In this document: positions 3,047-36,968 of the stretch, in pieces | Layout of the letters: every line of letters starts with the position of its first letter | How positions within the stretch are numbered: the stretch's first letter is position 1 | Made by a program: the position numbers and the translations under genes | Assembly (NCBI RefSeq): GCF_003201815.1 | Contig: NZ_QJKB01000002.1 | Span: 186,001 to 250,000, forward strand | DNA length: 64,000 bases | Direction: 5' to 3' | Source: Undibacterium pigrum | GTDB taxonomy: Bacteria; Pseudomonadota; Gammaproteobacteria; Burkholderiales; Burkholderiaceae_D | The notes under the pieces: model-generated | Told to the model about the DNA's origin: nothing | The model's input: the letters and a program-made list of their open reading frames with translations, nothing else | Databases searched by the model: none

Positions 3047-4030
3047 ATGGATACAAAATCACTTATCATTGTCTTTGTCACCCTGAATGGTGTGCAAAGC
3101 CTGGACCTGTCTGGCCCCATGGAGGTGTTTGCCGTGGCCAACCAGCACAAGCAGTCAGGCATGCCCACCTATCGCCTGATAGTCGCCAGCCCGCATGGTT
3201 GCAGTATCACCACCCACGCCGGGCTGGAAATACATGGGGTATGCGCACTCAGGGATTTGCCCACAGAGATTGATACCATCATCGTCACCGGTGGTAGTGA
3301 GGCTGCAATGCGCGAAGCTGCGGGAGAGAATATCCTGCTGCCCTGGTTGCAAGCGCGCAGTAAAGATACCCGCCGTATTGCCAGCGTCTGCATAGGTGCG
3401 CTGGTACTGGCTGCTGCCGGTCTGCTCAATGGCCGTCGCGCTACTACTCACTGGAATAGTTGTGCGCTATTGCAAAAGCTCTTTCCTGATGTGAAGCTCG
3501 ATGCTGATGCAATCTTCACCGCCGATGGCCCCATCTATACCTCGGCAGGAGTCACTGCCGGCATAGACCTGTGCCTGTCACTTGTGGAAACTGATGTTGG
3601 CCCGGCCTCAAGCCTGGCGGTAGCACGTGAACTCGTGCTGTACATGCGCCGTGCTGGCGGGCAATCGCAATACAGCACTACCCTGCAAAATCAATCCCTT
3701 GCTGCGCCACGCTTGCAACAATTACTCAGCGACATACTGGCCAACCCGGTTGGTGACTTGCGTAGCGCCACGCTGGCAGCGCGTGTACACATGAGCGAAC
3801 GCACTTTTTCGCGTGTTTTTCAACAGGAAACAGGCACCACCGCAGGACGTTTCGTCGACACTGCCCGCCTGGAATTTGCCAAGAACTTGCTGCTCACTAC
3901 AGATTGGCCACTGGCCCGTATCGCTGACCGGTCCGGCTATAACAGTCTCGATACCCTGCACCGCAGTTTTATCAAACACCTGGGCACCACGCCCGGGTTT
4001 TTTAGAGACAGGTTCGGCAGTTCAACATAA
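3047..4030 (+). CDS. GlxA/FtrA-type transcriptional regulator (DJ-1/PfpI domain plus AraC HTH)
   Basis: A 327-residue regulator. Residues 1 to about 190 form a DJ-1/PfpI domain (LDLSGPMEVFAVANQ near the start; ASVCIGALVLAAAGLLNGRRATTHW around the nucleophile elbow). Residues from about 225 to the end form an AraC-type double helix-turn-helix (LAARVHMSERTFSRVFQQET, then LARIADRSGYNSLDTLHRSF). The frame is open further upstream, but the ATG at 3047 is where homology starts, and it leaves an 82-base divergent promoter region shared with the DJ-1-like gene. Members of this group usually activate a neighbouring catabolic or stress gene in response to a nitrogenous metabolite; the ligand here is unknown. 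Confidence 0.85.
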   Translation: MDTKSLIIVFVTLNGVQSLDLSGPMEVFAVANQHKQSGMPTYRLIVASPHGCSITTHAGLEIHGVCALRDLPTEIDTIIVTGGSEAAMREAAGENILLPWLQARSKDTRRIASVCIGALVLAAAGLLNGRRATTHWNSCALLQKLFPDVKLDADAIFTADGPIYTSAGVTAGIDLCLSLVETDVGPASSLAVARELVLYMRRAGGQSQYSTTLQNQSLAAPRLQQLLSDILANPVGDLRSATLAARVHMSERTFSRVFQQETGTTAGRFVDTARLEFAKNLLLTTDWPLARIADRSGYNSLDTLHRSFIKHLGTTPGFFRDRFGSST

Positions 4031-4121
4031 AATTCCGTAAGCTTTTGATAGTGCCCCCGACTAATTTATATCTGTCGTATTATTCATGCATAAGTAAACA
4101 TATTCATAGAAAGTTCTCATC

Positions 4122-4637
4122 GTGAACAAGAAAAAATTACTCAGTGTCATTACAGCAGCGATGCTGGCAGCGGCCAGTTTTTCCGCATCGGCACAGGCAA
4201 ATAAAGATAATCAGCAGATGAGTTTTCAGGGGGCTGAGCTGAATGGCAAGAAAATTGCGCTCAGCGATTACGCAGGCAAGACCCTGCTGGTCAGCTTTTT
4301 TACGGCGGGTTGCAATCTCTGTGCGCGTGACTTGAAGCTCATGCGTGATTTTTATGATCGCAATATGAAGCGCAATTTTGTCTTGCTGGCGATTAATATT
4401 GATGCAGACAAGAAAGATTTTGATTCTTATGTGCAACTGATCAATCTGGCTGTGCCTGTAGAGCAACGTTTTCCCATTATCTGGCGCAATACGCCGGGTT
4501 ATAAGGACAATTTCGGTACTATTGTCAGCCAGCCCACGCATTTTGTGATTAATCCTAAAGGCCAGCTGGTCTTGAAGCGCGAAGGCAGTTTCCAGCCGAA
4601 TGACTGGGATAATCTGTGGGAATCGCTGGGCTCATGA
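4122..4637 (+). CDS. Exported thioredoxin-fold protein (TlpA/AhpC-like)
   Basis: A 171-residue protein that starts at a GTG codon. It has a signal peptide ending near ASA/QA (residues 22-26) followed by a thioredoxin fold. The redox motif is GCNLC with cysteines at residues 64 and 67, and the cis-Pro loop is visible as SQPTHFVINPKG. It most likely acts in the periplasm in thiol-disulfide exchange or peroxide reduction. It may be co-transcribed with the GNAT gene that begins 17 bases after its stop. The ribosome site is weak (AGAAAG), in keeping with the GTG start. Confidence 0.8.
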   Translation: MNKKKLLSVITAAMLAAASFSASAQANKDNQQMSFQGAELNGKKIALSDYAGKTLLVSFFTAGCNLCARDLKLMRDFYDRNMKRNFVLLAINIDADKKDFDSYVQLINLAVPVEQRFPIIWRNTPGYKDNFGTIVSQPTHFVINPKGQLVLKREGSFQPNDWDNLWESLGS

Positions 4638-20515: not shown

Positions 20516-20760
20516 TCTTTGTCATTCGTTTAATCATGACAAAAATATATCAAGACAGTCTCCCTTAATCTTAGATCAATATCCGCGCTCTTTCAATTTG
20601 CCTTTGAATTGCGAATTTTGCCGAACCCTGCCGAATTTTTACATTTTGAATTTTTACATCTTTAATTTTTACACTTTGTTTACGCCCCCTGTTTAAGTCT
20701 TTACGAATTTTTTACACGCTTCTCACTATGCTTCACTGTGTAAAAACGAAGGAGTAAAGC
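20516..20760 (+). promoter_or_regulatory. kdp promoter region with four AATTTTTACA boxes
   Basis: This 245-base region separates the GGDEF-EAL gene from the kdp operon. Three exact copies of AATTTTTACA begin at 20634, 20649 and 20664, spaced 15 bases apart, and a fourth with one extra T (AATTTTTTACA) lies at 20706-20716. The Escherichia coli KdpE site is also a T-rich tract ending in TTTTTTTACA, so these are likely KdpE-binding boxes. The last box is about 45 bases before the first start codon and could sit over a -35 element. A strong AAGGAG ribosome site is present at 20749-20754. Confidence 0.6.
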
Positions 20761-25663: not shown

Positions 25664-28390
25664 ATGGCCACTAATAGCGAACAACGCCCTGACCCTGATG
25701 TCTTGCTTGCCCATGTGCAGGAGCAAGAACGCCGGGCCACGCGTGGCAAGCTGCGTATCTATTTCGGTGCATCCGCTGGCGTAGGCAAGACCTACGCCAT
25801 GCTGACTGCCGCACGCAAGCTGGTGGCCGAGGGCCAGCAGGTATTGGTCGGTGTCATAGAAACCCATGGCCGTGATGAAACCGCAGCCCTGGTCGATGGT
25901 CTCGAAGTCTTGCCTCCGAAAGCCATCGCTTACCGCGACAAGACCCTCAGTGAATTTGACATAGACACAGCGCTGGAGCGTCACCCGCCATTGATCTTGA
26001 TGGATGAACTCGCACATTCCAATGCTGCCGGTTCACGCCACCCCAAGCGCTGGCAAGACGTGGATGAATTACTAAGCGCCGGTATCGATGTGTATACCAC
26101 CGTCAATGTCCAGCATCTGGAAAGCCTGAATGACGTGGTCGGTGGCATCACCGGCATACGCGTCAATGAAACTCTGCCGGACAAGGTGTTTGATGAAGCT
26201 GATGAAGTCGTGCTGGTGGATATCCCGGCTGACGAGTTATTGGCCAGGCTCAAGTCTGGCCGCGTCTATAAGCTGCAACAGGCAGAACGCGCTGCCAAGA
26301 ATTTTTTCCGCAAAGGTAATCTGATCGCTTTGCGCGAGCTGGCCCTGCGCCGCACCGCCGACAGGGTCGAAGATGATGTACAGGCCTATCGCATAGAAAA
26401 GTCCATAGGCACGATCTGGAAGACCGATGCCGCCCTGCTGGCCTGCATAGGCCCGCACGGTGATGCCAACCACCTGGTACGCAGCGCTGCCCGCCTGGCC
26501 AGCCAGATGAATGCAGAATGGCATGCCGTGTATGTAGAGACACCGCAGTTGCAAAGGCTGCCATCGGCGCAGCGCGAACGCATATTAAAAACCCTGAAGC
26601 TGGCGCAAGACCTGGGTGCAGTGACTGCCGTGCTGACCGGCAAGGATATTGCGCTGGCGATAGTTGATTATGCCCATAGCCACAATTTTTCGCGTGTGGT
26701 GCTGGGGCGTCGCAACAGTAAGTGGAATGGTAAGTGGCGACTAGCTTGGCAGCAAGCTAAACTGTTGAACGATATCGCCGACTACGCTCCCGATCTGGAT
26801 TTGATCGAGGTAGGTGAGGCCAGGATCGCCAGATCGGAAACCGCTCAAGAAAAACAGACACAGGCTGTCAGTATCAATGAGCCTGCCACACCGCGTGTAC
26901 CAGCACGGCACTGGCGTTATGTTTACGCCGCCCTGGCCAGTGTGGCAGCAGGGTTGGTTGCCGCCCCCTTGTTCGAGGTTTTCAATCTCGTCAATATTGC
27001 CATGCTGTTTTTACTGACCGTGGTCCTGGTCGCCGTCAAATTTGGCCGTGGCCCTTCGGTGCTGGCAACGATAGTTGGTATTGCTGTATTTGATTTCTTT
27101 TTTGTACAACCGCGCTTTTCTTTTGCCGTCAGTGATTTTCAATACCTGATGACCTTTGCCGTCATGCTGGTGGTCGGCCTGATCACCGGTCACCTGACGG
27201 CAGATTTGCGCTATCAGGCCAGGGTCGCCAGCCATAGGGAAAACCGCGCGCGTGCCCTGTATGAATTTGCCCGTGACTTGTCCGGCGTCTTGCAGGCTGA
27301 GCAGATTTCAGAAACCACCCAAGTCATCGTGCAGCGTGCCTTCCGCGCCAAGGCTACTTTGCTCTTGCCGGATGATGCAGGGCGTCTGCAGGCACCAGAT
27401 AATATGCTCGCAGGCCTGGACCTGGGTATCGCGCAATGGGCTTTCGACAAGGTAGAGGCAGCAGGCATAGGCACGGATACCCTGCCCGCCAGTAACTTCT
27501 TTTACCTGCCTCTGGTCGCACCCATGCGCACCCGCGGCTTGCTGGCGATACAGCCAGAGAGCAAGCGCTGGATCATGATACCCGAGCAAAGACAGCAACT
27601 CGATACCTTTGCCGCCCTGGCAGCAATCGCGCTGGAACGCGTGCACTATATCGAGGTCGCGCAAGATGCCCTGATTCATATGGAATCTGAACGCCTGCGC
27701 AATTCACTGCTGGCTGCGCTGTCGCATGATTTGCGCACACCACTGACTTCGCTGGTGGGTATTTCGGAATCACTGGCCATGTCCAAACCCGCACTGGCGG
27801 ATGCACAACTGCACATGGCGCAAGCCCTGCGTGACGAGACCCTGCGCCTGTCTGCCCTGGTGACTAATTTGCTCGACATGGCGAGGATAGAAAGTGGCGA
27901 AGTCAAACTGAATTTGCAGTGGCTGACATTTGAAGAAGTAGTCGGCACTTCCCTGCGCATCTGCAGTGCGCAACTGCAAACACATCAAGTGGAAACCAGG
28001 CTGGAAGCTGCTTTACCACTGATTAATTTTGATGCTGTGCTGATAGAACGGGTACTGTGTAACCTGCTGGAAAATGCCTGCAAATATACCCCGGCAAATT
28101 CCCTCATCACCATTTCTGCCGAGCTCAATGGCAGCATGCTGGAAGCCAAGGTCTATGACAATGGGCCGGGTCTACCAGCCGGGCGTGAAGAAGCCATATT
28201 TGAAAAATTTACCCGTGGTGAACGTGAATCTGCCCTGCCCGGCGTTGGCCTGGGGCTGGCAATTTGCCGTGCCATTATCACGGCCCACAAGGGCAGCATG
28301 CATGCAGCGCAATCGCCGAATGGTGGAGCCTGTTTCATCTTTACCCTGCCTTTAGGCACGCCACCGGCGATGCCTGATCTTGAAGAATAA
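25664..28390 (+). CDS. kdpD: Osmosensitive potassium-channel histidine kinase KdpD
   Basis: A 908-residue sensor kinase. The N-terminal KdpD domain has a Walker-type loop GASAGVGKT (residues 35-43) and HPKRWQDV; a universal-stress-type domain follows (about 245-375); four membrane helices lie at about 405-510 (DUF4118); a GAF-like region precedes the kinase core. The phosphorylated His688 is in LSHDLRTPLTSL, and the ATPase lid shows NLLENACKYTP, DNGPGLP and GVGLGLAICRAI. KdpD responds to low potassium and ionic stress and phosphorylates KdpE. All functional parts appear intact. Confidence 0.96.
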   Translation: MATNSEQRPDPDVLLAHVQEQERRATRGKLRIYFGASAGVGKTYAMLTAARKLVAEGQQVLVGVIETHGRDETAALVDGLEVLPPKAIAYRDKTLSEFDIDTALERHPPLILMDELAHSNAAGSRHPKRWQDVDELLSAGIDVYTTVNVQHLESLNDVVGGITGIRVNETLPDKVFDEADEVVLVDIPADELLARLKSGRVYKLQQAERAAKNFFRKGNLIALRELALRRTADRVEDDVQAYRIEKSIGTIWKTDAALLACIGPHGDANHLVRSAARLASQMNAEWHAVYVETPQLQRLPSAQRERILKTLKLAQDLGAVTAVLTGKDIALAIVDYAHSHNFSRVVLGRRNSKWNGKWRLAWQQAKLLNDIADYAPDLDLIEVGEARIARSETAQEKQTQAVSINEPATPRVPARHWRYVYAALASVAAGLVAAPLFEVFNLVNIAMLFLLTVVLVAVKFGRGPSVLATIVGIAVFDFFFVQPRFSFAVSDFQYLMTFAVMLVVGLITGHLTADLRYQARVASHRENRARALYEFARDLSGVLQAEQISETTQVIVQRAFRAKATLLLPDDAGRLQAPDNMLAGLDLGIAQWAFDKVEAAGIGTDTLPASNFFYLPLVAPMRTRGLLAIQPESKRWIMIPEQRQQLDTFAALAAIALERVHYIEVAQDALIHMESERLRNSLLAALSHDLRTPLTSLVGISESLAMSKPALADAQLHMAQALRDETLRLSALVTNLLDMARIESGEVKLNLQWLTFEEVVGTSLRICSAQLQTHQVETRLEAALPLINFDAVLIERVLCNLLENACKYTPANSLITISAELNGSMLEAKVYDNGPGLPAGREEAIFEKFTRGERESALPGVGLGLAICRAIITAHKGSMHAAQSPNGGACFIFTLPLGTPPAMPDLEE

Positions 28391-28397
28391 GCACACG

Positions 28398-29105
28398 ATG
28401 ACTACTGCTACTCAAACAACGCCAGTCGCCTTGCTGGTCGAAGATGAACCACAGATACGCCGCTTCGTGCGCAATGCGCTCGAAGAAGAACAATGGCAAG
28501 TCCATGAATCAGTCAACTTGCAACGTGGTCTCGTCGATGCTGGTACACGCCAGCCTGACCTCATCATCCTTGACCTGGGTCTGCCAGATGGCGACGGCAT
28601 CGACTTCATCCTCGATGTACGCAAATGGTCTAATGTTCCCATCATCGTCTTGTCTGCCCGCGTCAGTGAACAGGACAAGATCAAGGCGCTCGATGCCGGC
28701 GCTGATGATTACCTCAGCAAGCCTTTTGGCGTGGGTGAACTACTGGCACGCGTACGTGCGACGTTCCGGCGTCAGCGCCAGCCTGGTGTCAATGTCGACG
28801 GCATAGTCCAGTTTGGCGATGTCAAGGTCGATATGAAAGCCCGCCTCGTCACCAAGGCCGGGGCGATGGTGAAACTGACACCGACAGAGTTCCGGCTGCT
28901 GATGGTGCTGGTCACCAATGTAGGCAGGGTCGTCACCAACCCGCAATTACTGCGTGAAGTCTGGGGCCCCAGCCATTCTGAAAGCGGTCATTACCTGCGC
29001 ATCTACATGGGGCATTTGCGACAGAAACTCGAAGATGACCCGGCGCAGCCGCGCTATTTGTTGACAGAGACAGCGATAGGCTACCGCCTCCTGCTCCCAA
29101 CTTAA
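28398..29105 (+). CDS. kdpE: Response regulator KdpE
   Basis: A 235-residue OmpR-type regulator. The receiver has the acidic pair in LLVEDEPQI, the phosphoacceptor Asp in LIILDLGLPDGDG and the Lys in SKPFGVGEL; the C-terminal winged helix shows LTPTEFRLLMVLV and SHYLRIYMGHLRQKLE. A TTG-initiated frame overlapping kdpD would add six residues, but the ATG at 28398, seven bases after the kdpD stop, fits better. It should activate the kdp promoter, whose T-rich repeats lie 8 kb upstream at the head of the same operon, closing an autoregulatory loop. Confidence 0.96.
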   Translation: MTTATQTTPVALLVEDEPQIRRFVRNALEEEQWQVHESVNLQRGLVDAGTRQPDLIILDLGLPDGDGIDFILDVRKWSNVPIIVLSARVSEQDKIKALDAGADDYLSKPFGVGELLARVRATFRRQRQPGVNVDGIVQFGDVKVDMKARLVTKAGAMVKLTPTEFRLLMVLVTNVGRVVTNPQLLREVWGPSHSESGHYLRIYMGHLRQKLEDDPAQPRYLLTETAIGYRLLLPT

Positions 29106-29202: not shown

Positions 29203-29937
29203 ATGAAAAAACTCATCATGGCAGCAGCCATCAGCACCGTCTTTTTTGCCGGATATGCCAGCGCAGAAGATGCCAAACCTGAGCATGAAATCAGCTTCAA
29301 TGCAGCAGTGACTTCTGATTACCGTTATCGCGGCATTTCGCAAACACGCCTGCAAGCTGCATTGCAGGGCGGTGCTGACTATACCCATAATCCCAGCGGC
29401 TTTTATGCCGGCACATGGGCATCCACCATCAAATGGACCAAGGATGCTGGCGGTGGTGGCGATGTGGAAATTGATCTGTACGCAGGCAAGCGCGGTGAGC
29501 TCAGCAAGGACATCAGCTATGACGTCGGTGTACTCAGCTATGTCTATCCATCCAATGGCCTGGCGGTGAGTGCGAATACCACAGAGATTTATGGTCAGCT
29601 TTCCTACGGCCCGGCTTATGCCAAATATTCACACTCTGTCACCAACCTGTTCGGTTTTGCCGATAGTAAAAACAGTGGCTATCTGGACCTGGGTGCGAAT
29701 GTGGAAATGGCCACCGGCCTGACACTGAACCTGCATGCCGGTCACCAGCAAGTGAAGAATAATGGTGCTTACAGTTATACAGACTGGAAGCTGGGTTTGA
29801 CAAAAGACTTTGGTATCGTTACAGGTGCTGTGGCCGTCATCGGCACCAATGCGGGTGAAGTGGCTTATGCATCGCCAGCCAACGGCAAGTTCCTCGGCAA
29901 GACAGCACTGGTAGTAATGGTTAGCAAAACCTTCTGA
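29203..29937 (+). CDS. TorF-family putative porin
   Basis: A 244-residue outer-membrane protein with a signal peptide ending in AGYASA. The mature N-terminus AAVTSDYRYRGISQTRLQAALQGGADY is the TorF family (Gcw_chp) signature. Alternating short beta-strands continue to a terminal Phe (MVSKTF), which suits insertion by the BAM machinery. The ATG at 29203 is used because the nine upstream residues have no signal-peptide character. It is a single gene between the kdp terminator and a convergent hairpin. The transported solute is unknown. Confidence 0.85.
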   Translation: MKKLIMAAAISTVFFAGYASAEDAKPEHEISFNAAVTSDYRYRGISQTRLQAALQGGADYTHNPSGFYAGTWASTIKWTKDAGGGGDVEIDLYAGKRGELSKDISYDVGVLSYVYPSNGLAVSANTTEIYGQLSYGPAYAKYSHSVTNLFGFADSKNSGYLDLGANVEMATGLTLNLHAGHQQVKNNGAYSYTDWKLGLTKDFGIVTGAVAVIGTNAGEVAYASPANGKFLGKTALVVMVSKTF

Positions 29938-29950
29938 GTCAGAACATGGT

Positions 29951-29972
29951 GAGCCAGATGCAATTCTGGCTC
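29951..29972. terminator. Hairpin between the TorF gene and the ParA-like operon
   Basis: GAGCCAGA and TCTGGCTC form a perfect 8-base stem with a TGCAAT loop, 13 bases after the TorF stop and 28 bases beyond the stop of the convergent ParA-like gene. It lacks a strong T-run on either side but is placed to act in both directions. Confidence 0.45.
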
Positions 29973-30000
29973 ATGCTAGGCAGGGGAAATTACAGGGCAA

Positions 30001-30582
30001 TCATGGTAAATAGATTGCCCTGTAAAGCTGAGTCAGCGACATATCATGCGCCTGATCGAGGTAAATGAATTTGATATGGCAAAGCTGTCGGGATAAGTCA
30101 CTGATAAATTTCTGGCTTTGCATGCAAGCGATTTTATCTATCGTGATCAGCACTGGTAAACCCTTATTTTTATTGCGCGCCAGCCTGATGCATTTATAGA
30201 GTTTGGCCTGTTTTTCTTTATTCCATTTATCCAGTTCTGTATGGCATACCAACAGCTCACAGCAGGATAAAGCGGTGGCAGCATCTGCATAAAATGGCTT
30301 GGAAATATCCATCACTATATCGTGGAAATTTGCATTTCCAGGCGTCAGCTCTTTAGCTATGGCACAGCAAGAAAGTGCAGTAGAACTGGCTGCCGTTTTT
30401 ATCTCCTGGCGTGACCATGCAATATTCTCAGCTTCTTTGCGGTATTGGTTAGCCTGTTTTCTTGCGCTATTTTGTTTAAGCAGCAAGACGTTCCTGCCTG
30501 CATGTGCCCGGCGTTCAGCCAACCTGGTGGCTGTGCTCAACTTTGCTGATGCAAAGTCTGCAGTCACTATCGCCACTATCAT
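30001..30582 (-). CDS. ParA/MinD-like protein with lost Walker A glycines (second copy)
   Basis: A 193-residue protein counted from the ATG at 30582, which overlaps the TGA of the upstream membrane-protein gene as ATGA; a longer in-frame start exists but lies inside that gene. It aligns along its length with the other ParA-like gene of this operon: MIVAIVTADFASAKLSTATR against MIITIAHGAGDCAKSIVADN, NVLLLKQN against KLILLDND, and DIVMDISKPFYADAATAL against DIVIDAEARDCMGSRSAL. The glycines of the P-loop and the acidic residue after the second strand are gone, so ATP hydrolysis is unlikely. It has many Lys and Cys residues. Role unknown, probably a non-catalytic partner of its paralogue. Confidence 0.65.
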   Translation of the reverse strand: MIVAIVTADFASAKLSTATRLAERRAHAGRNVLLLKQNSARKQANQYRKEAENIAWSRQEIKTAASSTALSCCAIAKELTPGNANFHDIVMDISKPFYADAATALSCCELLVCHTELDKWNKEKQAKLYKCIRLARNKNKGLPVLITIDKIACMQSQKFISDLSRQLCHIKFIYLDQAHDMSLTQLYRAIYLP

Positions 30583-31049
30583 GGTTGGTGCAATCCTGAA
30601 GAAAACTGCGCATGCAAGCCAGCTAGCAATTCCTGTGTTGCCAGCATGATTATTATCAAGGCCAACAATTTTTGCAAGCTGATGAGTAGCAGTGCATAGT
30701 TCTTTTGACGAGGCCACTGTACACCCGGGCGGGCGATTGCTAGCTGTATGAAGCTTGTGGAGACTAGCACCAACATAACTTCTATTAAGCAGCTATCGGT
30801 GTTCGTTTGATATGCCGTGAGTGAAGACAGGGATGCAGCTGCCAGCAAGCAAAGCGAGATGCTAAAACCTTGCTCAGTTTCTTTATTTTTCTGCTTGATC
30901 CCCATGAATATGCAAATAGCAGTTGCCAGTAATATCAGTCCAGAAATTATCTGCAAGCGCAAGTCTTGTATCTGTAAACAGGCAAGCACAGCAAAGCCAG
31001 ACAAAGTCATACTGCTATATGCAGCAAGTGCAATAAACAGGCGTTTCAT
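30579..31049 (-). CDS. Four-helix inner-membrane protein, unknown function
   Basis: A 156-residue protein that I do not recognise. Four hydrophobic segments are visible: LFIALAAYSSMTLSGFAVLA, LQIISGLILLATAICIFMG, a third around SISLCLLAAASLSSLTA with a fourth after SCLIEVMLVLVSTSFIQLAIA, and LLISLQKLLALIIIMLATQE, so four or five helices. It sits between the two ParA-like genes, five bases after the first and overlapping the second by four bases. Tight packing implies that the three products act together, with this protein as the possible membrane anchor or receptor of the ParA-like pair. Confidence 0.7.
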   Translation of the reverse strand: MKRLFIALAAYSSMTLSGFAVLACLQIQDLRLQIISGLILLATAICIFMGIKQKNKETEQGFSISLCLLAAASLSSLTAYQTNTDSCLIEVMLVLVSTSFIQLAIARPGVQWPRQKNYALLLISLQKLLALIIIMLATQELLAGLHAQFSSGLHQP

Positions 31050-31054
31050 TGCAT

Positions 31055-31702
31055 TCAGTGGCTGGCAAAAACCTTGCTGGACAAAGCCTGCATGGCCTTG
31101 ATTGTCATGGGATGGGCAGCAGGGTATTCGCAGACAGACAAGCCATGCTGATAGGCCTGATGAAAACTGCCGCCGCAGAATAAGGGATAGGGAAATAATT
31201 CTGCAGCGTCCAGCTTGCTGACAAAATCTTTTACCCTGATCACTTTATCAGCGGCAGCCTGTACATCACTGCAACTCATGACGACCAGAGTGCGCATGCG
31301 CGGGTTTTCTGCTTGTGCAAGCTGTATGCGCTTGCTCAGTTCCTGCTCTTGCAATTGCGCCAGTTGATCAAGGTCGATGACGAGTATGGTGACATGGGCA
31401 GCCTGCAAGGCGCTGCGGCTGCCCATGCAGTCGCGTGCTTCTGCATCAATGACAATATCCTGATAATGAAAACCCAGGTTTTCCAGTTCAGCCTGCATGC
31501 CCTTGCCGCTGACTCTGCGCACGGTCACGGGTGTGCAGTCAGCCTTGCAGCGACGGGCACGGCTCCAGTCCAGAGATGAGTGACGGGCGTCATTATCGAG
31601 CAAGATAAGTTTGCTGCCAGACAGTGTACGCAAGGTAGCGAGATTGTCGGCCACGATGGATTTGGCGCAGTCTCCCGCGCCATGTGCAATGGTGATGATC
31701 AT
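31055..31702 (-). CDS. ParA/MinD-like ATPase homologue with altered Walker A (first copy)
   Basis: A 215-residue protein of the ParA/VirC1-like deviant P-loop superfamily. The nucleotide loop reads HGAGDCAKSIVADNLA, where the family has KGGVGKTT; the signature Lys before the loop and the last Gly are changed, but the Lys-Ser pair is kept. The next strand KLILLDNDARHSSLDWSRAR matches the conserved LLDxDPQxSxxxW segment, and DIVIDAEARD is the Walker B strand. Such proteins position plasmids, chromosomes or secretion machines. It lies 17 bases after dapA and five bases before the membrane gene. Reduced or altered ATPase activity is inferred. Confidence 0.75.
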   Translation of the reverse strand: MIITIAHGAGDCAKSIVADNLATLRTLSGSKLILLDNDARHSSLDWSRARRCKADCTPVTVRRVSGKGMQAELENLGFHYQDIVIDAEARDCMGSRSALQAAHVTILVIDLDQLAQLQEQELSKRIQLAQAENPRMRTLVVMSCSDVQAAADKVIRVKDFVSKLDAAELFPYPLFCGGSFHQAYQHGLSVCEYPAAHPMTIKAMQALSSKVFASH

Positions 31703-31719
31703 AGATAATTTCTTTGTGC

Positions 31720-32664
31720 TTAGCGCACCATGCGCAGGTTACGGACATTGTTGATAACTGGACCAGGCAAGCTCCTGGCTTTGACAGGTAGAGGCAAATC
31801 AGAGAGTCTCTGCAGCTCATGTGCAAGTTTGATTTTCCCGGCAAGCGACATGGCTGTCATGGGCAGGCGCAGTTCTTCCTGTATCAGACCCTGCATCGCC
31901 AGTGCGGCTTTGACGGGGGCTGGATTGGATTCTGAAAACAACAGACGTATGAGATTCTGCATTTTCGCAAACAGAGCCTGTGCTTCAGGAAAATAATCAG
32001 CGCGCATGAGTTCATACAATTGCACGAACAAATCAGGCCGCACATGCGCCGCCGCAGAAATAGCACCCTGGCCACCCATGCTCAAGGTATCCATCAACAT
32101 GGCATCGTCTCCGCATAAAACTTTCAGATGACTGCAATTCACCAGCCCCATCATTTGCGTCAGATTGCCACTGCTCTCCTTGATGGCGACAATATTCTTT
32201 TGCTTTTCCAGCGCGATAATGGTGCTCAGGTCTATGTTCACCCCCGTCCTGGCGGGCACGTTATACAGGACGACATCTTTCTCAGTCGCCCTGGCGATAG
32301 TCTCAAGATGCAGGCGCACACCTTCTTGTGAAGGACGTAGATAAGATGGCGCGCTGACCAGAAATCCTTGCAGGTGCTGGTCATCATAAGCGTGTACTTT
32401 TTCTGCCAGCGAATGTGTATCGCTACCGCTGATACCCATCAGTACAGGACAAGAATTTTTCGTCACTTCCAGCACGGCAGTCAATAGCTGTTTCTGCTCA
32501 TGCTCATTCAATGTTGCGGCCTCGCCGGTAGTGCCACAGACCACCAGGCCATGTATGCCTGCTGCCATCAATTGTGTGGCCAGTTGCTGTACTTTATCCA
32601 GCTCAGGTCTGCCATTTTTAAATGGCGTGACGAGTGGAACCCAGATGCCTTCGTAGATAGACAT
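31720..32664 (-). CDS. dapA: 4-hydroxy-tetrahydrodipicolinate synthase (DapA family)
   Basis: A 314-residue class I aldolase that joins pyruvate and aspartate semialdehyde in the lysine/meso-diaminopimelate pathway. The family residues are in place: GTTGE at 44-48, the catalytic Tyr134 in YNVPARTG, and the Schiff-base Lys162 in AIKESSG; the Arg-containing segment around residue 139 is intact. The C-terminal 20 residues (SLPGPVINNVRNLRMVR) extend a little beyond the usual end. It is encoded within an operon that otherwise holds unknown and ParA-like genes, not lysine genes, so it may be a second copy or a paralogue with another keto-acid substrate. Confidence 0.85.
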   Translation of the reverse strand: MSIYEGIWVPLVTPFKNGRPELDKVQQLATQLMAAGIHGLVVCGTTGEAATLNEHEQKQLLTAVLEVTKNSCPVLMGISGSDTHSLAEKVHAYDDQHLQGFLVSAPSYLRPSQEGVRLHLETIARATEKDVVLYNVPARTGVNIDLSTIIALEKQKNIVAIKESSGNLTQMMGLVNCSHLKVLCGDDAMLMDTLSMGGQGAISAAAHVRPDLFVQLYELMRADYFPEAQALFAKMQNLIRLLFSESNPAPVKAALAMQGLIQEELRLPMTAMSLAGKIKLAHELQRLSDLPLPVKARSLPGPVINNVRNLRMVR

Positions 32665-32706
32665 AGTGATCTCTTTAAAGATTTGATTTGTCGACGTGTC
32701 TTAAAA

Positions 32707-33105
32707 TCAGGTCGCGATCAGCGGTGTGATTTTCCCGAATTCGGCCTGCGGCAAGGCGCGCATGATATGACTGATGATGGTGTCGACTGAGGACTTGCTA
32801 AGGCATAACCACACCTTCATTTTGCTGGCATGGTCTACTGGTTTAACGCGCATGAACAAGACCAGGTCACCACAGGTTTTGAGTATCAGATGGCGCAGTT
32901 CAGTGATGCTGGCGGAGTCGACCGTGATACGCATGACGAAATCATTTTGGACCAATTTCGCTGATGTTTTATAGGTGACTACAGGCTGATGCTGGGCATA
33001 AGCGCTTTGGCGTTCGCGATGTTTTTCAAATAAGAACTTCTCGCGCTTGCAGGATGCCAGGACATCTGAATAGTTTTCAGATGTGTGGCCGGAATGATGA
33101 TTCAT
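32707..33105 (-). CDS. Hypothetical protein, first gene of the dapA/ParA-like operon
   Basis: A 132-residue soluble protein with no signal peptide or membrane segment. The N-terminal third is basic and polar (CKREKFLFEKHRERQSAYAQ), and the rest has a compact alpha-beta look with repeated short strands (FVMRITVDSASITELRHLIL, DLVLFMRVKPVDHASKMKVW) that resembles an ACT-like fold, which would suit an amino-acid sensor beside dapA; the resemblance is by eye only. The ATG at 33105 is preferred to an upstream start because a GAG-rich ribosome site lies just before it. It precedes dapA by 42 bases. Confidence 0.6.
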   Translation of the reverse strand: MNHHSGHTSENYSDVLASCKREKFLFEKHRERQSAYAQHQPVVTYKTSAKLVQNDFVMRITVDSASITELRHLILKTCGDLVLFMRVKPVDHASKMKVWLCLSKSSVDTIISHIMRALPQAEFGKITPLIAT

Positions 33106-33251
33106 CGTAATCTCGTGTTGTTTGACACAAAACAAGATTAGCAGTCACAGCGTAAATATTCTCTAAAAAACAGGGGTGAAAATCGTAAACATCATGTAAA
33201 TGTTTTTGTTTCAAATGCCCTGGTACAGAAAACCATCTTCACTCCTTGGCT

Positions 33252-36200
33252 TCATTCCTTGGCTTCATTAAGCAATTGTGCCAGAGATGCATGCAAAAGC
33301 TCTGCCTGCACGGGTTTGTGCATGAGGATAAGTTCGGCTTTTTTTGCATCGTCCGACAATTGCGCCGAAATATCGCCAGTAATCAGGATGGCGGGAATCT
33401 GATGATTGAATTCTTCGCGCAGCTTGTTGATCACGTCTATGCCATTTTCATTGAGTTTCAGGCTGTAGTCACAGACCAGTAAATCAGGAATTCTGATTTC
33501 TTCACTGCACAGGTCCAATGCCTGCATGCCCGAGGTGGCCGTGATGACACGCGCATCCCATTGTTCCAGCAAGGCACGCATGGCGACCAGTATGCGTTCA
33601 TCGTCATCGATGACGACGATCAGGGCTTGTAATAAAGAAGCAGTCGCACCGGCTTTGCTGCGGCTTTGCCTGTCTCTCATCTCCTCACTCAGGATGAGTG
33701 GCAGGCTGATTGCAAAAGTGGAACCTTTGCCTGGCTGGGAGCGCAATTGTATGGGGATGTGCATGAGCCTTACCAGTCTCTGCACTATTGCCAGCCCCAG
33801 GCCCATTCCCTTGGTGCTGCGTTGTGATTCGACCTGGAAGAATTCTTCAAAAATGGTTTCCTGGTCATGCAGGGAAATGCCTATGCCAGTATCTTCTACT
33901 GAAACTTGCAGTAGCTGCCCGGATTCCGTGCAGTTGACGATCACCTGGCCCGCAGGCGTGTAGCGGATAGCATTGGCAATCAGGTTGCGCAAGATTTGCT
34001 CTATCAGTGCAGGGTCACTATTGACCACCGCCATACTATGCAATATCTGGAAATGCAGGCCTTTCACCAGGGCCTGCGGTGCGAACTCTACTTCCAGCCG
34101 TCCCAGCACTTCTGCAATCGCAAATTCCTGTAATTGTGGTTCTACGATCTGTGCATCCAGGCGTGACAAATCCAGCAGATTGGCAAACATGTCATCCATG
34201 GTGCGGGCGCAATGCCGGAGATTATTGACGACGGGGCGCACATCGGCAGGCAGTTCAAAATTATTCAGGGCACCAAGATACAGATTCAGGGCATGCATGG
34301 GTTGGCGCAAATCATGGCTGGCAACAGCCAGGAAACGCGTCAATTCACTTTGCTGCAACTCTTGCCGCTTGTTTACCCTGAGCAGGGCTTGATTGGTTTT
34401 TTCCAGTTCTTCTTTTTGTGCGCTGACTTCCATGGTCCTGCTGTTGACTTCGGCTTCCAGAGCATCCTTTTGCTGTACCAGTGCACAGACTCGCCAGAGG
34501 TAGGTAAACCACATGGCAGCCAGCAAACCTGCCGCCAGCATCAGCCTGAACCAGATGGTATGCCAGAAGGGCGGCAAGATAGTAATTTTCAGGCTTCTGC
34601 CGGTTTCATTCCATATACCATCCTTGTTGGCTGCCTTGACCCTGAAGGTGTAAACACCGGGATCGAGATTGGTATAAGTGGCATAACGCTTGCTGGCATC
34701 TGTGTAGACCCAGTCCTGATCAAATCCCTGTAATTGATAAGCGTATTGATTGCGCTGGGGGTCGGCATAATGTAACGCAGAAAATTCCAGGGAAAAAATC
34801 GTATGTGCATGCTTTAAAGTGATTTCATGTGCATCCTGAATTTGCCCTTGCATGGAAAACCCCTGTGGTAGTTTTCCTGTCGTTACAGATTGATTAAAAA
34901 TTTTCAGGTCGGTGAGCAAGACCTGCGGTGCTGCAAGGTTGTCACGGATTTCCTCAGGCTTGAAACTGATCAGCCCGGACGGGCTGCCAAAATACATCTT
35001 GCCAGCTTTATCCATGCGGCAGGAGTTCAGATAATAGGATTCTGCGAGGCCATCATCATAGGTGTAATGCCTTGATTCGCCGGTTGCCGGATCAAGACGC
35101 ATCAGTTCACTTTCCAGACTCATCCACAAGCGTCCCTTGCTGTCTTCCAGCAGGCAATTGACAGGCTGATTGATGGGGAAATTCTGGAATTGTGCCTGTT
35201 GGTCTTTCCAGCCTGTCAGTTTGCTCAGGCCAGTTTCCGTACCCACCCATAACTGTTTTTTGCTGTCCTTGAAAACATGCAGTACATTGTCATGTAGCAG
35301 GCTGTGCGCATTATTTGCATCGCGCTGGATATGCCTGAACTTGCCAGACTGTAGTTCAAATATGTCCAGGCCATTCTGAGTCGCTACCCAAAATACGCCA
35401 GCTTCATCCATCAACAGGGCATTGACGATATCATGCGCGATACTGTCAGTTTTATTGGTCTGGTGTTTGTAGACGCTCAGTTCATCCTTGCGGGTATCCA
35501 GCTTGAGCAAACCATTGATACTGGCGAGCCACAAATTACCCTCCTTGTCGGCATGCATATCATTGATGTTGAATTTCGTCGATGGTTCACCCGGTTTGGA
35601 TGTTCGCAATACCAGTTCATCAGACTTTTCATCCAGCCTTGCCAGGCCAGCCCGGGTTGATGCCCAGGTCTGGCCATTGGCCGTTACACGCACACCGTTG
35701 ACGATATCAAGATCATTGATGCGGTTGTCTCCGTCCGGAGTCTGGCGTATGGTTTTCAATACCTTGCCGGATACCGGGTCCAGCAGTTTCAGGCCTTTTC
35801 CTATCGTGCTTATCCACCATAGCTGCTCGTTATATTCGGTCATGGATGCCACCTTGCTGTCTTTCAGCGTATCGGCATTCATAGGCAAATAAGAGAAATT
35901 GGTAAAGCCTCCACTGGCGAGGTCAACTCGGTTAACGCCTCCTGACCAGGTGCCAACCCAGAGTGAGCCAGTCTTGTCCTGATGCAGCGCCTCTACCTGG
36001 TTATCGGACAAGCTTTCAGTGATGCCGGGCTGGTTCTGGTAACTGGTGAATTTCTGGCTGCCTGCATCCCAGCGTAGCAAGCCTTTGTCAGCCATGCCTA
36101 CCCAGATGTTGTGTTCACGGTCTTCCATGATCCTGTAGGCAACGCCAGGTATCCAGCCTTCGCTCATGCCAAATGTGCGGCGGCTTATCTGAGCCTGGCC

Positions 36201-36968
36201 CAACTGCCAGGTTTCCAGGCCATTATTGCTTCCTATCCACAGGTTTTGCGCATGGTCGATCAGCAATCCCCTTATGGCCTTTTGTGTTCCATCCTTGTTC
36301 TGCGTAGCTTCAGCCTGATAATGCTTGAATTGATCACTGCCATATTTCTTGAAGTCCAGACCGGATACCGTGCCTATCCAGAGATTTTTTTGTGCATCCA
36401 GTGCCAGGGAAGTCAGCTTGTCATCTATCAGGGAGTCGGGCCTGGCATCATCATGCTGGAAGAGCGTGAATTTTTCTGTACCAGGGTTGAAATGCTTGAG
36501 CCCTTTGCGGCTGGCTATCCACAGTCCGTTATCGCCATCGCCGATGATCATGCGTACAGGGTTATTTGTGCGATTGTCTGCGTCGCTTGAATAATAGCGT
36601 TTGAAATTATTGGTCCGCCTGTCATACAGATGCAGGCCGCCGCGGCTGCTGCCTGCCCACAGTCGCCCGGATTTATCTATGTAGAGGCTGCGTATCCAGT
36701 TGTCATCCAGGCTGGCAGTATTTTCCGGCTGGTTCTTGTAGATGGTGAATTTGTAGCCGTCAAAGCGGGACAATCCCTGTTGTCCGGCCAGCCAGATATA
36801 TCCTTGTGCGTCTTGCACGATATCGGTAATTGGCCCGGCCTGTATGCCTTGTTTTCTCTTGATATGTTCAAATTGCAGGCTGCGCATGGGCGTGCTTGCA
36901 CTGGCAATGTGCCAGTTTGATAGCAGCAGGGCAAAGATTATCAGCAGGCAGGCGCGGAAAATATGCAT
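33252..36968 (-). CDS. Hybrid histidine kinase with periplasmic beta-propeller sensor (HTCS-like)
   Basis: A 1238-residue sensor with a signal sequence, then about 14 two-component propeller repeats (each holding a GxLWxGT/S-like turn such as GRLWAGSSRGGLHLYD and GSLWVGTWSGGVNRVD), a Y_Y_Y domain (YAYQLQGFDQDWVYTD) and one membrane helix (IWFRLMLAAGLLAAMWFTYLW). The kinase core has His885 in ASHDLRQPMHAL and an ATPase domain with GMGLGLAIV. A C-terminal receiver carries Asp1167 in LLVCDYSL. Unlike the Bacteroides HTCS proteins it stops after the receiver with no AraC output domain, so the phosphate must pass to another protein. It lies downstream of an iron/carboxylate uptake cluster, separated from it by a terminator. 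Confidence 0.9.
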   Translation of the reverse strand: MHIFRACLLIIFALLLSNWHIASASTPMRSLQFEHIKRKQGIQAGPITDIVQDAQGYIWLAGQQGLSRFDGYKFTIYKNQPENTASLDDNWIRSLYIDKSGRLWAGSSRGGLHLYDRRTNNFKRYYSSDADNRTNNPVRMIIGDGDNGLWIASRKGLKHFNPGTEKFTLFQHDDARPDSLIDDKLTSLALDAQKNLWIGTVSGLDFKKYGSDQFKHYQAEATQNKDGTQKAIRGLLIDHAQNLWIGSNNGLETWQLGQAQISRRTFGMSEGWIPGVAYRIMEDREHNIWVGMADKGLLRWDAGSQKFTSYQNQPGITESLSDNQVEALHQDKTGSLWVGTWSGGVNRVDLASGGFTNFSYLPMNADTLKDSKVASMTEYNEQLWWISTIGKGLKLLDPVSGKVLKTIRQTPDGDNRINDLDIVNGVRVTANGQTWASTRAGLARLDEKSDELVLRTSKPGEPSTKFNINDMHADKEGNLWLASINGLLKLDTRKDELSVYKHQTNKTDSIAHDIVNALLMDEAGVFWVATQNGLDIFELQSGKFRHIQRDANNAHSLLHDNVLHVFKDSKKQLWVGTETGLSKLTGWKDQQAQFQNFPINQPVNCLLEDSKGRLWMSLESELMRLDPATGESRHYTYDDGLAESYYLNSCRMDKAGKMYFGSPSGLISFKPEEIRDNLAAPQVLLTDLKIFNQSVTTGKLPQGFSMQGQIQDAHEITLKHAHTIFSLEFSALHYADPQRNQYAYQLQGFDQDWVYTDASKRYATYTNLDPGVYTFRVKAANKDGIWNETGRSLKITILPPFWHTIWFRLMLAAGLLAAMWFTYLWRVCALVQQKDALEAEVNSRTMEVSAQKEELEKTNQALLRVNKRQELQQSELTRFLAVASHDLRQPMHALNLYLGALNNFELPADVRPVVNNLRHCARTMDDMFANLLDLSRLDAQIVEPQLQEFAIAEVLGRLEVEFAPQALVKGLHFQILHSMAVVNSDPALIEQILRNLIANAIRYTPAGQVIVNCTESGQLLQVSVEDTGIGISLHDQETIFEEFFQVESQRSTKGMGLGLAIVQRLVRLMHIPIQLRSQPGKGSTFAISLPLILSEEMRDRQSRSKAGATASLLQALIVVIDDDERILVAMRALLEQWDARVITATSGMQALDLCSEEIRIPDLLVCDYSLKLNENGIDVINKLREEFNHQIPAILITGDISAQLSDDAKKAELILMHKPVQAELLHASLAQLLNEAKE

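Follow-up and report, generated by a model that had tools for sequence, protein, structure and literature searches.

A five-gene operon beside kdp in Undibacterium pigrum looks like an undescribed side-branch of the potassium-shortage response

Why a lysine-pathway synthase gene shares an apparent operon with two ParA-like genes, a membrane protein gene, and a reading frame of no recognized family is the question raised by a locus of Undibacterium pigrum, which was analyzed here within 64,000 nucleotides of NCBI RefSeq assembly GCF_003201815.1 (contig NZ_QJKB01000002.1, positions 186,001 to 250,000; this whole stretch is hereafter the window, and coordinates refer to it). The five genes lie on the minus strand in the order orf132 (32707-33105), a dapA paralog (31720-32664) recognized by a dihydrodipicolinate synthase (DHDPS) profile match and residue comparison, ParA-like 1 (31055-31702), the membrane protein gene (30579-31049), and ParA-like 2 (30001-30582). 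In agreement with a preliminary description of the locus, the coordinates checked in the window gave gaps of 42, 17, 5, and -4 bases, the ATG of ParA-like 2 overlapping the stop codon of the membrane gene by 4 bases, and a terminator scan found no minus-strand terminator-like site between the five genes. A single transcript is likely because intergenic terminator-like sites are absent, minus-strand promoter-like matches within the operon notwithstanding (counting both strands, the 5-kb region has 9 promoter-like sites versus 5.5 expected). Together, the five genes resemble a side-branch of the potassium-shortage response that has so far gone undescribed, and the operon is probably, if by no means securely, an accessory arm of the KdpDE response to potassium limitation. 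This potassium link, which consists of KdpE-type boxes and the adjoining kdp genes and was missed by the preliminary description, is the best functional clue to the locus.

KdpDE is a textbook two-component system, and kdp adjoins the operon in the window, where kdpA was identified together with kdpD and kdpE (25664-29105, plus strand, both above the NCBIfam cut-offs). The KdpE site published for E. coli consists of two 6-bp direct repeats, TTTATA and TTTACA, 5 bp apart (PMC3264566). Direct repeats of the form TTTA[CT][AG] with the same 5-bp spacing are present upstream of the operon, where the pattern match TTTACATGATGTTTACG (33184-33200, minus strand) lies 95 nt before orf132 and a second repeat element with one mismatch, TTTAGAGAATATTTACG (33151-33167, minus strand), follows 33 bp downstream of it; the two pattern matches in the kdp promoter (20668-20684 and 20700-20716, plus strand) are spaced by 32 bp. 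The pattern TTTAYR-N5-TTTAYR thus gave three matches in the window versus 0.13 expected, and three were reached in none of 100 shuffles. An exact box also occurs upstream of kdpA in all seven genomes in which this gene was located, and the kdp promoters of these genomes share this type of direct-repeat box with the E. coli KdpDE-kdpFABC system.

Across relatives, 34 of 66 orf132 matches (64 stretches) had an exact box no more than 400 bp upstream of the start of the domain, and 61 had a box with one mismatch at most, compared with 1.7% and 3.3%, respectively, of random windows taken from the same loci. Control loci, which comprised 10.4-10.9 kb around 20 of 33 other DapA paralogs (216,979 bp), held no exact and eight one-mismatch sites. 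The box before orf132 is also present where kdp is distant or on another contig (G036, G070, G150, and G011). In one genus in which kdp is far off (g29), an exact box stands at a constant distance in all 12 orf132 loci, with nearly invariant half-sites and a variable 5-bp spacer, and an exact box likewise precedes ParA1-like genes that are unlinked to orf132 in 12 of 12 loci of this genus, two of these genomes being without an orf132 match. Three ParA1-like loci of other genera had no box or a one-mismatch box.

The surroundings of the gene pair point in the same direction. Among 53 module loci, defined as fetched stretches of 4.5-18.3 kb holding both orf132 and DapA, 42 contained a gene for a K+/cation transporter (Kdp in 27, ChaA-like in 11, TMEM175 in three, and Kup in one), compared with none of the 20 control loci at an E-value of 1e-12 and one weak KdpD-like match, with 29% identity, at 1e-5. 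The stock of such genes per genome, counted in seven genomes, was 1-2 for Kup, 0-3 for TMEM175, 0-2 for the Na_Ca_ex type, and one for KdpA. In two loci of another family (L181 and L182), orf132 and a gene for a TorF family putative porin lie on one strand between kdpB and kdpDE; in L148, orf132-dapA is located between kdpB/TorF and kdpD, and in L183 the order along one strand is orf132, dapA, a 586-residue reading frame, and kdpD.

Several observations weigh against this interpretation. The U. pigrum genome of 6.4 Mb contains 25 sites, versus 33 for a reversed control pattern, and a box alone proves nothing because the pattern is not enriched genome-wide. No exact box was found for 32 of the 66 orf132 matches, including six of seven loci of genus g6 and the three TMEM175-type loci, and in several loci (e.g. 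L103-L105, L155, and L156) nothing but the second element, of the TTTAGA type, matches with one mismatch. The 12 ParA1 boxes in g29 are nearly identical, spacer included. Moreover, 11 of the 53 module loci were without a K+ gene, at least two of them being cut off by the edge of a contig; the potassium role of the ChaA-like proteins is unsure because their scores fall below the ChaA cut-off, and the count without them is 31 of 53. The loci are also phylogenetically non-independent. Such points are what would be expected if an amino-acid operon had come to lie beside kdp through shared ancestry and chance, its boxes being fortuitous AT-rich promoter sequence. We consider this unlikely because the box is retained at loci unlinked to kdp and on unlinked ParA1-like genes, with the half-sites before orf132 steady and the spacer variable, and because three kinds of K+/cation transporter other than Kdp accompany the pair, with exact boxes and such genes alike missing from the control loci.

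Fourteen further box sites of the U. pigrum genome were examined, one inside a reading frame and most of the others without a clear downstream gene. One site (L250, contig C3 near 39354) lies just upstream of a gene of the phosphotransferase system (PTS) EIIA type (PtsN-like), nearly touching its first possible start, and in L147 a PTS EIIA-type gene (3655-4149) is divergent to orf132, with a box on the opposite strand; a gene of this type is a possible further regulon member, as judged from these positions. A box with an identical spacer is shared by U. pigrum (L251), where it precedes an ornithine cyclodeaminase-family gene, and genome G010 (L263). In the latter genome, a tandem repeat with an 11-bp unit, TTTATACTGCG (C32, 266433-266559), yields 11 matches to the box that overlap one another.

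DHDPS is known for direct feedback by lysine, and residue comparisons suggest that the spare DapA differs in this respect. The window protein scored 251.2 bits against TIGR00674 (cut-off 206.15; it also belongs to the PF00701 family) and has all of the residues T44/T45, Y107, Y133, R138, and K161, numbered, as are all DapA positions here, on the fetched E. coli sequence and taken by us to be catalytic. Y107, Y133, R138, and K161 are kept in all 18 module DapAs compared, with position 44 being S or A in two. In contrast, H56, N80, E84, and Y106, which we take to form the lysine site, are replaced in all 18. Both housekeeping copies compared retain these four residues and depart from the E. coli sequence at positions 49 and 53. 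By this comparison, shut-off by lysine has apparently been lost in the spare DapA. A housekeeping role for the operon gene was rejected, since a higher-scoring second dapA is present in the same genome before a lipoprotein-like gene, which presumably resembles bamC. The window copy therefore differs from known DapA/DHDPS proteins, with which it shares a score above the cut-off and the catalytic residues, in being additional to the housekeeping enzyme, in its replaced lysine-site residues, and in its co-location with orf132.

This co-location is the most regular feature of the operon. A profile of the module DapA type separated cleanly, with 93 matches at or above 458.9 bits and one cut fragment, followed by scores of 384.2 bits or less. 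Of 94 same-family genomes with the module-type DapA, 74 have orf132 directly upstream of it in the same orientation and a further 16 have orf132 no more than 6 kb away, leaving four without it in this range; none of the 33 lower-scoring DapA paralogs has orf132 within 6 kb. Outside the family, orf132 also stands beside a DapA in two of four loci (L183 and L184). For at least 43 of the 94 module DapAs, the gene directly downstream is ParA-like 1. The preliminary description had placed a ParA-membrane-ParA trio at the core with dapA and orf132 attached to it, which has to be reversed: beyond the window genus, the recurrent unit is orf132-dapA, some of these loci have no ParA-like match, and the P-loops are degraded. 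As read from gene neighborhoods, the operon core is orf132 and the dapA paralog, not the ParA pair. In E. coli K-12 (L187), dapA adjoins gcvR, presumably the gene of an ACT-domain protein, which is a loose parallel to orf132-dapA.

A joint function of the two products also has evidence against it. The linkage count is partly circular because most of the copies that went into the DapA profile are themselves linked to orf132, and 33 genomes have an orf132 match and no module-type DapA. The loss of lysine-site residues is not unique to the module, as H56 and E84 are also missing from a further DapA paralog encoded in the same genome. In a close relative (L021, 9995-10312), orf132 is approximately 27 residues short, its first strand and helix being gone, and dapA remains intact. 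As a separate observation, one 11-kb stretch near kdpA (L096) contains three orf132-like matches.

An AlphaFold2 model and fold search indicated that orf132 is a stand-alone ferredoxin-like (PII/ACT-type) domain with its elements at residues 55-128 in the beta-alpha-beta-beta-alpha-beta arrangement and with low model confidence over the first 50 residues. This fold is common to many unrelated families, and unrelated proteins sharing it scored nearly as high in the search. No significant Pfam or NCBIfam family was found for the window protein, and none in Pfam for the L027 copy. PII proteins have a long T-loop at the connection between beta2 and beta3, which is short in the orf132 model (residues 91-94); this connection, the absence of a Pfam/NCBIfam match, and conserved features of its own (H92 and an LPxAEFG motif) set orf132 apart from PII-like proteins (SbtB, CPII, and DUF3240) and from ACT regulators such as IlvN of AHAS, which it resembles in fold only. 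Assignment of orf132 to the PII proteins was rejected because no family profile matches, compatible as the fold is. The orf132 profile matched 125 of 392 genomes of the family and six of 399 genomes of the order, two of these six being family members. The earlier suggestion that dapA and orf132 tie the locus to amino-acid metabolism is in keeping with the pairing of an ACT/PII-like fold and a DHDPS devoid of the lysine-site residues.

KdpE control of the operon is a prediction from sequence, and we infer contact between orf132 and DapA, lysine insensitivity of the enzyme, a biochemical output, and a physiological purpose. When K+ is scarce, phosphorylated KdpE would bind the TTTAYR-N5-TTTAYR box before orf132, and this binding would activate the whole five-gene operon along with kdpFABC. 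The orf132 protein would be a regulatory partner that senses a metabolite or an ion-linked signal and gates the second DHDPS, which, without the residues for lysine inhibition, would allow flux to diaminopimelate and lysine to continue under K+ limitation where normal lysine feedback would halt it. The complete scheme is put forward only tentatively: a K+-controlled metabolic switch in which KdpDE turns on a dedicated DHDPS that is free of feedback and has a new PII/ACT-type partner as its gate, yielding lysine or diaminopimelate at low K+, possibly as cationic amino acids that replace K+ or to sustain wall synthesis, with the degenerate ParA pairs as regulon-specific adaptors.

A different division of labor, in which orf132 mainly regulates a K+ transporter (KdpFABC, Kup, ChaA-like, or TMEM175) in the manner of GlnK-AmtB and SbtB-SbtA, with the DapA paralog either as a secondary effector or as an independent passenger of the regulon, would account for the 33 genomes with orf132 and without the module-type DapA. 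It is also consistent with L181 and L182, where orf132 lies inside the kdp locus and a DapA match is absent from the fetched 10 kb, with the differences between genera in the K+/cation transporter beside orf132, and with the near folds, which include chains of SbtB and GlnK, in part from structures that also contain their transporters. However, the tight orf132-dapA tandem is better explained by joint action of the products, and the short beta2-beta3 connection stands where PII proteins have their long T-loop, leaving this alternative doubtful.

Returning to the operon as an accessory branch of the KdpDE response, the place of its remaining genes may be assessed from their conservation. The preliminary description had staked its module on the genes being found together elsewhere, and the same five-gene order was recovered in 10 loci of Undibacterium relatives (L021-L030; the genus is assigned to Oxalobacteraceae in the NCBI taxonomy). 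A ParA-like 1 match was obtained in 17 of 43 genomes of the genus, with at least 44% identity in 12, U. pigrum among them; in the twelfth (G019), the cluster is apparently split, with ParA1-membrane-ParA2 at a contig end (L031) and orf132-dapA on another contig (L145). The ratio of nonsynonymous to synonymous substitution rates (dN/dS) between the window copy and near relatives was 0.06-0.14 for orf132 (the L021 copy with the deletion excluded), 0.06-0.12 for dapA, 0.05-0.13 for ParA-like 1, 0.17-0.36 for the membrane gene (three relatives), which is under weaker constraint, and 0.24-0.34 for ParA-like 2 (one pair saturated). Judged from the order in 10 relatives and these ratios, the grouping of the genes is more than chance.

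The term ParA/MinD-like, used in the preliminary description, holds for the fold and not for the nucleotide-binding motif. The deviant Walker A motif of ParA/MinD ATPases is KGGxGK[ST], and neither protein has it: ParA-like 1 carries an eroded version, HGAGDCAKS, in which the signature lysine and the GKT glycine are lost, and ParA-like 2, modelled with a ParF/MipZ-like fold, has no P-loop at all. Fold and weak profile similarity are shared with these ATPases (ParF and MipZ; NF041546), and two Rugamonas relatives carry NGGSGKT. The supposed four-helix membrane protein is, through its full-length relatives, probably better described as a shrunken relative of the MarC/NAAT family (PF01914); the window copy of 156 residues is below detection, the full-length relatives L027, L028, and L031 match above the cut-off, L025 and L029 fall below it, and L026 is unmatched. 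A MarC-like gene beside orf132-dapA was recognized only in loci of the window genus, other genera not having been searched systematically. A plasmid partition origin was rejected, as a plasmid search gave distant ParA relatives with at most 30.5% identity (best 20 of 501), and the ParA-membrane trio was rejected as the core since orf132-dapA occurs without ParA-like matches in several loci (e.g. L141 and L147-L151). A membrane-associated ParA/MinD positioning module (ParA-MarC-ParA), to which dapA and orf132 would report precursor status, would explain why two ParA-like proteins flank the membrane protein in all ten full relatives and is in line with the ParF/MipZ-like fold of ParA-like 2; the eroded or absent P-loops, the shrinking and weakly constrained membrane gene, and the orf132-dapA loci without a ParA-like match make it very improbable. 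The ParA-like proteins and the MarC remnant are probably lineage-specific accessories, acting as non-ATPase scaffolds or adaptors.

If the operon is indeed a branch of the KdpDE response, a bacterial family would share a second KdpE-type operon, conserved among its members, which would tie K+ shortage directly to the branch point of the aspartate family and place a stand-alone PII/ACT-like protein beside DHDPS. It would also provide a first functional frame for proteins without any family match, and the wider response of the cell to K+ exhaustion would become directly testable. In E. coli, the kdp operon has been called the sole target of KdpE, to which one study adds adeP, uxaA, and uxaC, with a main text that never mentions dapA or lysine (PMC7657598). 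Among the matches listed from open-access PMC, no paper was found on a DapA with a PII-like/ACT partner, a DapA/ParA-like/MarC combination, a KdpDE regulon in Burkholderiales, or KdpE together with DapA.

The operon is flanked downstream by the convergent gene for the TorF family putative porin (TIGR02001 profile match; 29206-29937, plus strand), which adjoins orf132 in other genera and families too. Between the two lies a perfect 9-bp inverted repeat (29950-29973) without a T-run, which was read from the sequence, is not listed by the terminator scan, and is possibly a bidirectional terminator. The next gene upstream of orf132, separated by a 146-bp gap that contains the KdpE-type box, encodes a hybrid sensor kinase of 1238 residues (33252-36968, minus strand). 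This kinase has a full-length match in L025, and its counterparts in L021-L024 are 476-513 residues long, most of the N-terminal part being absent.

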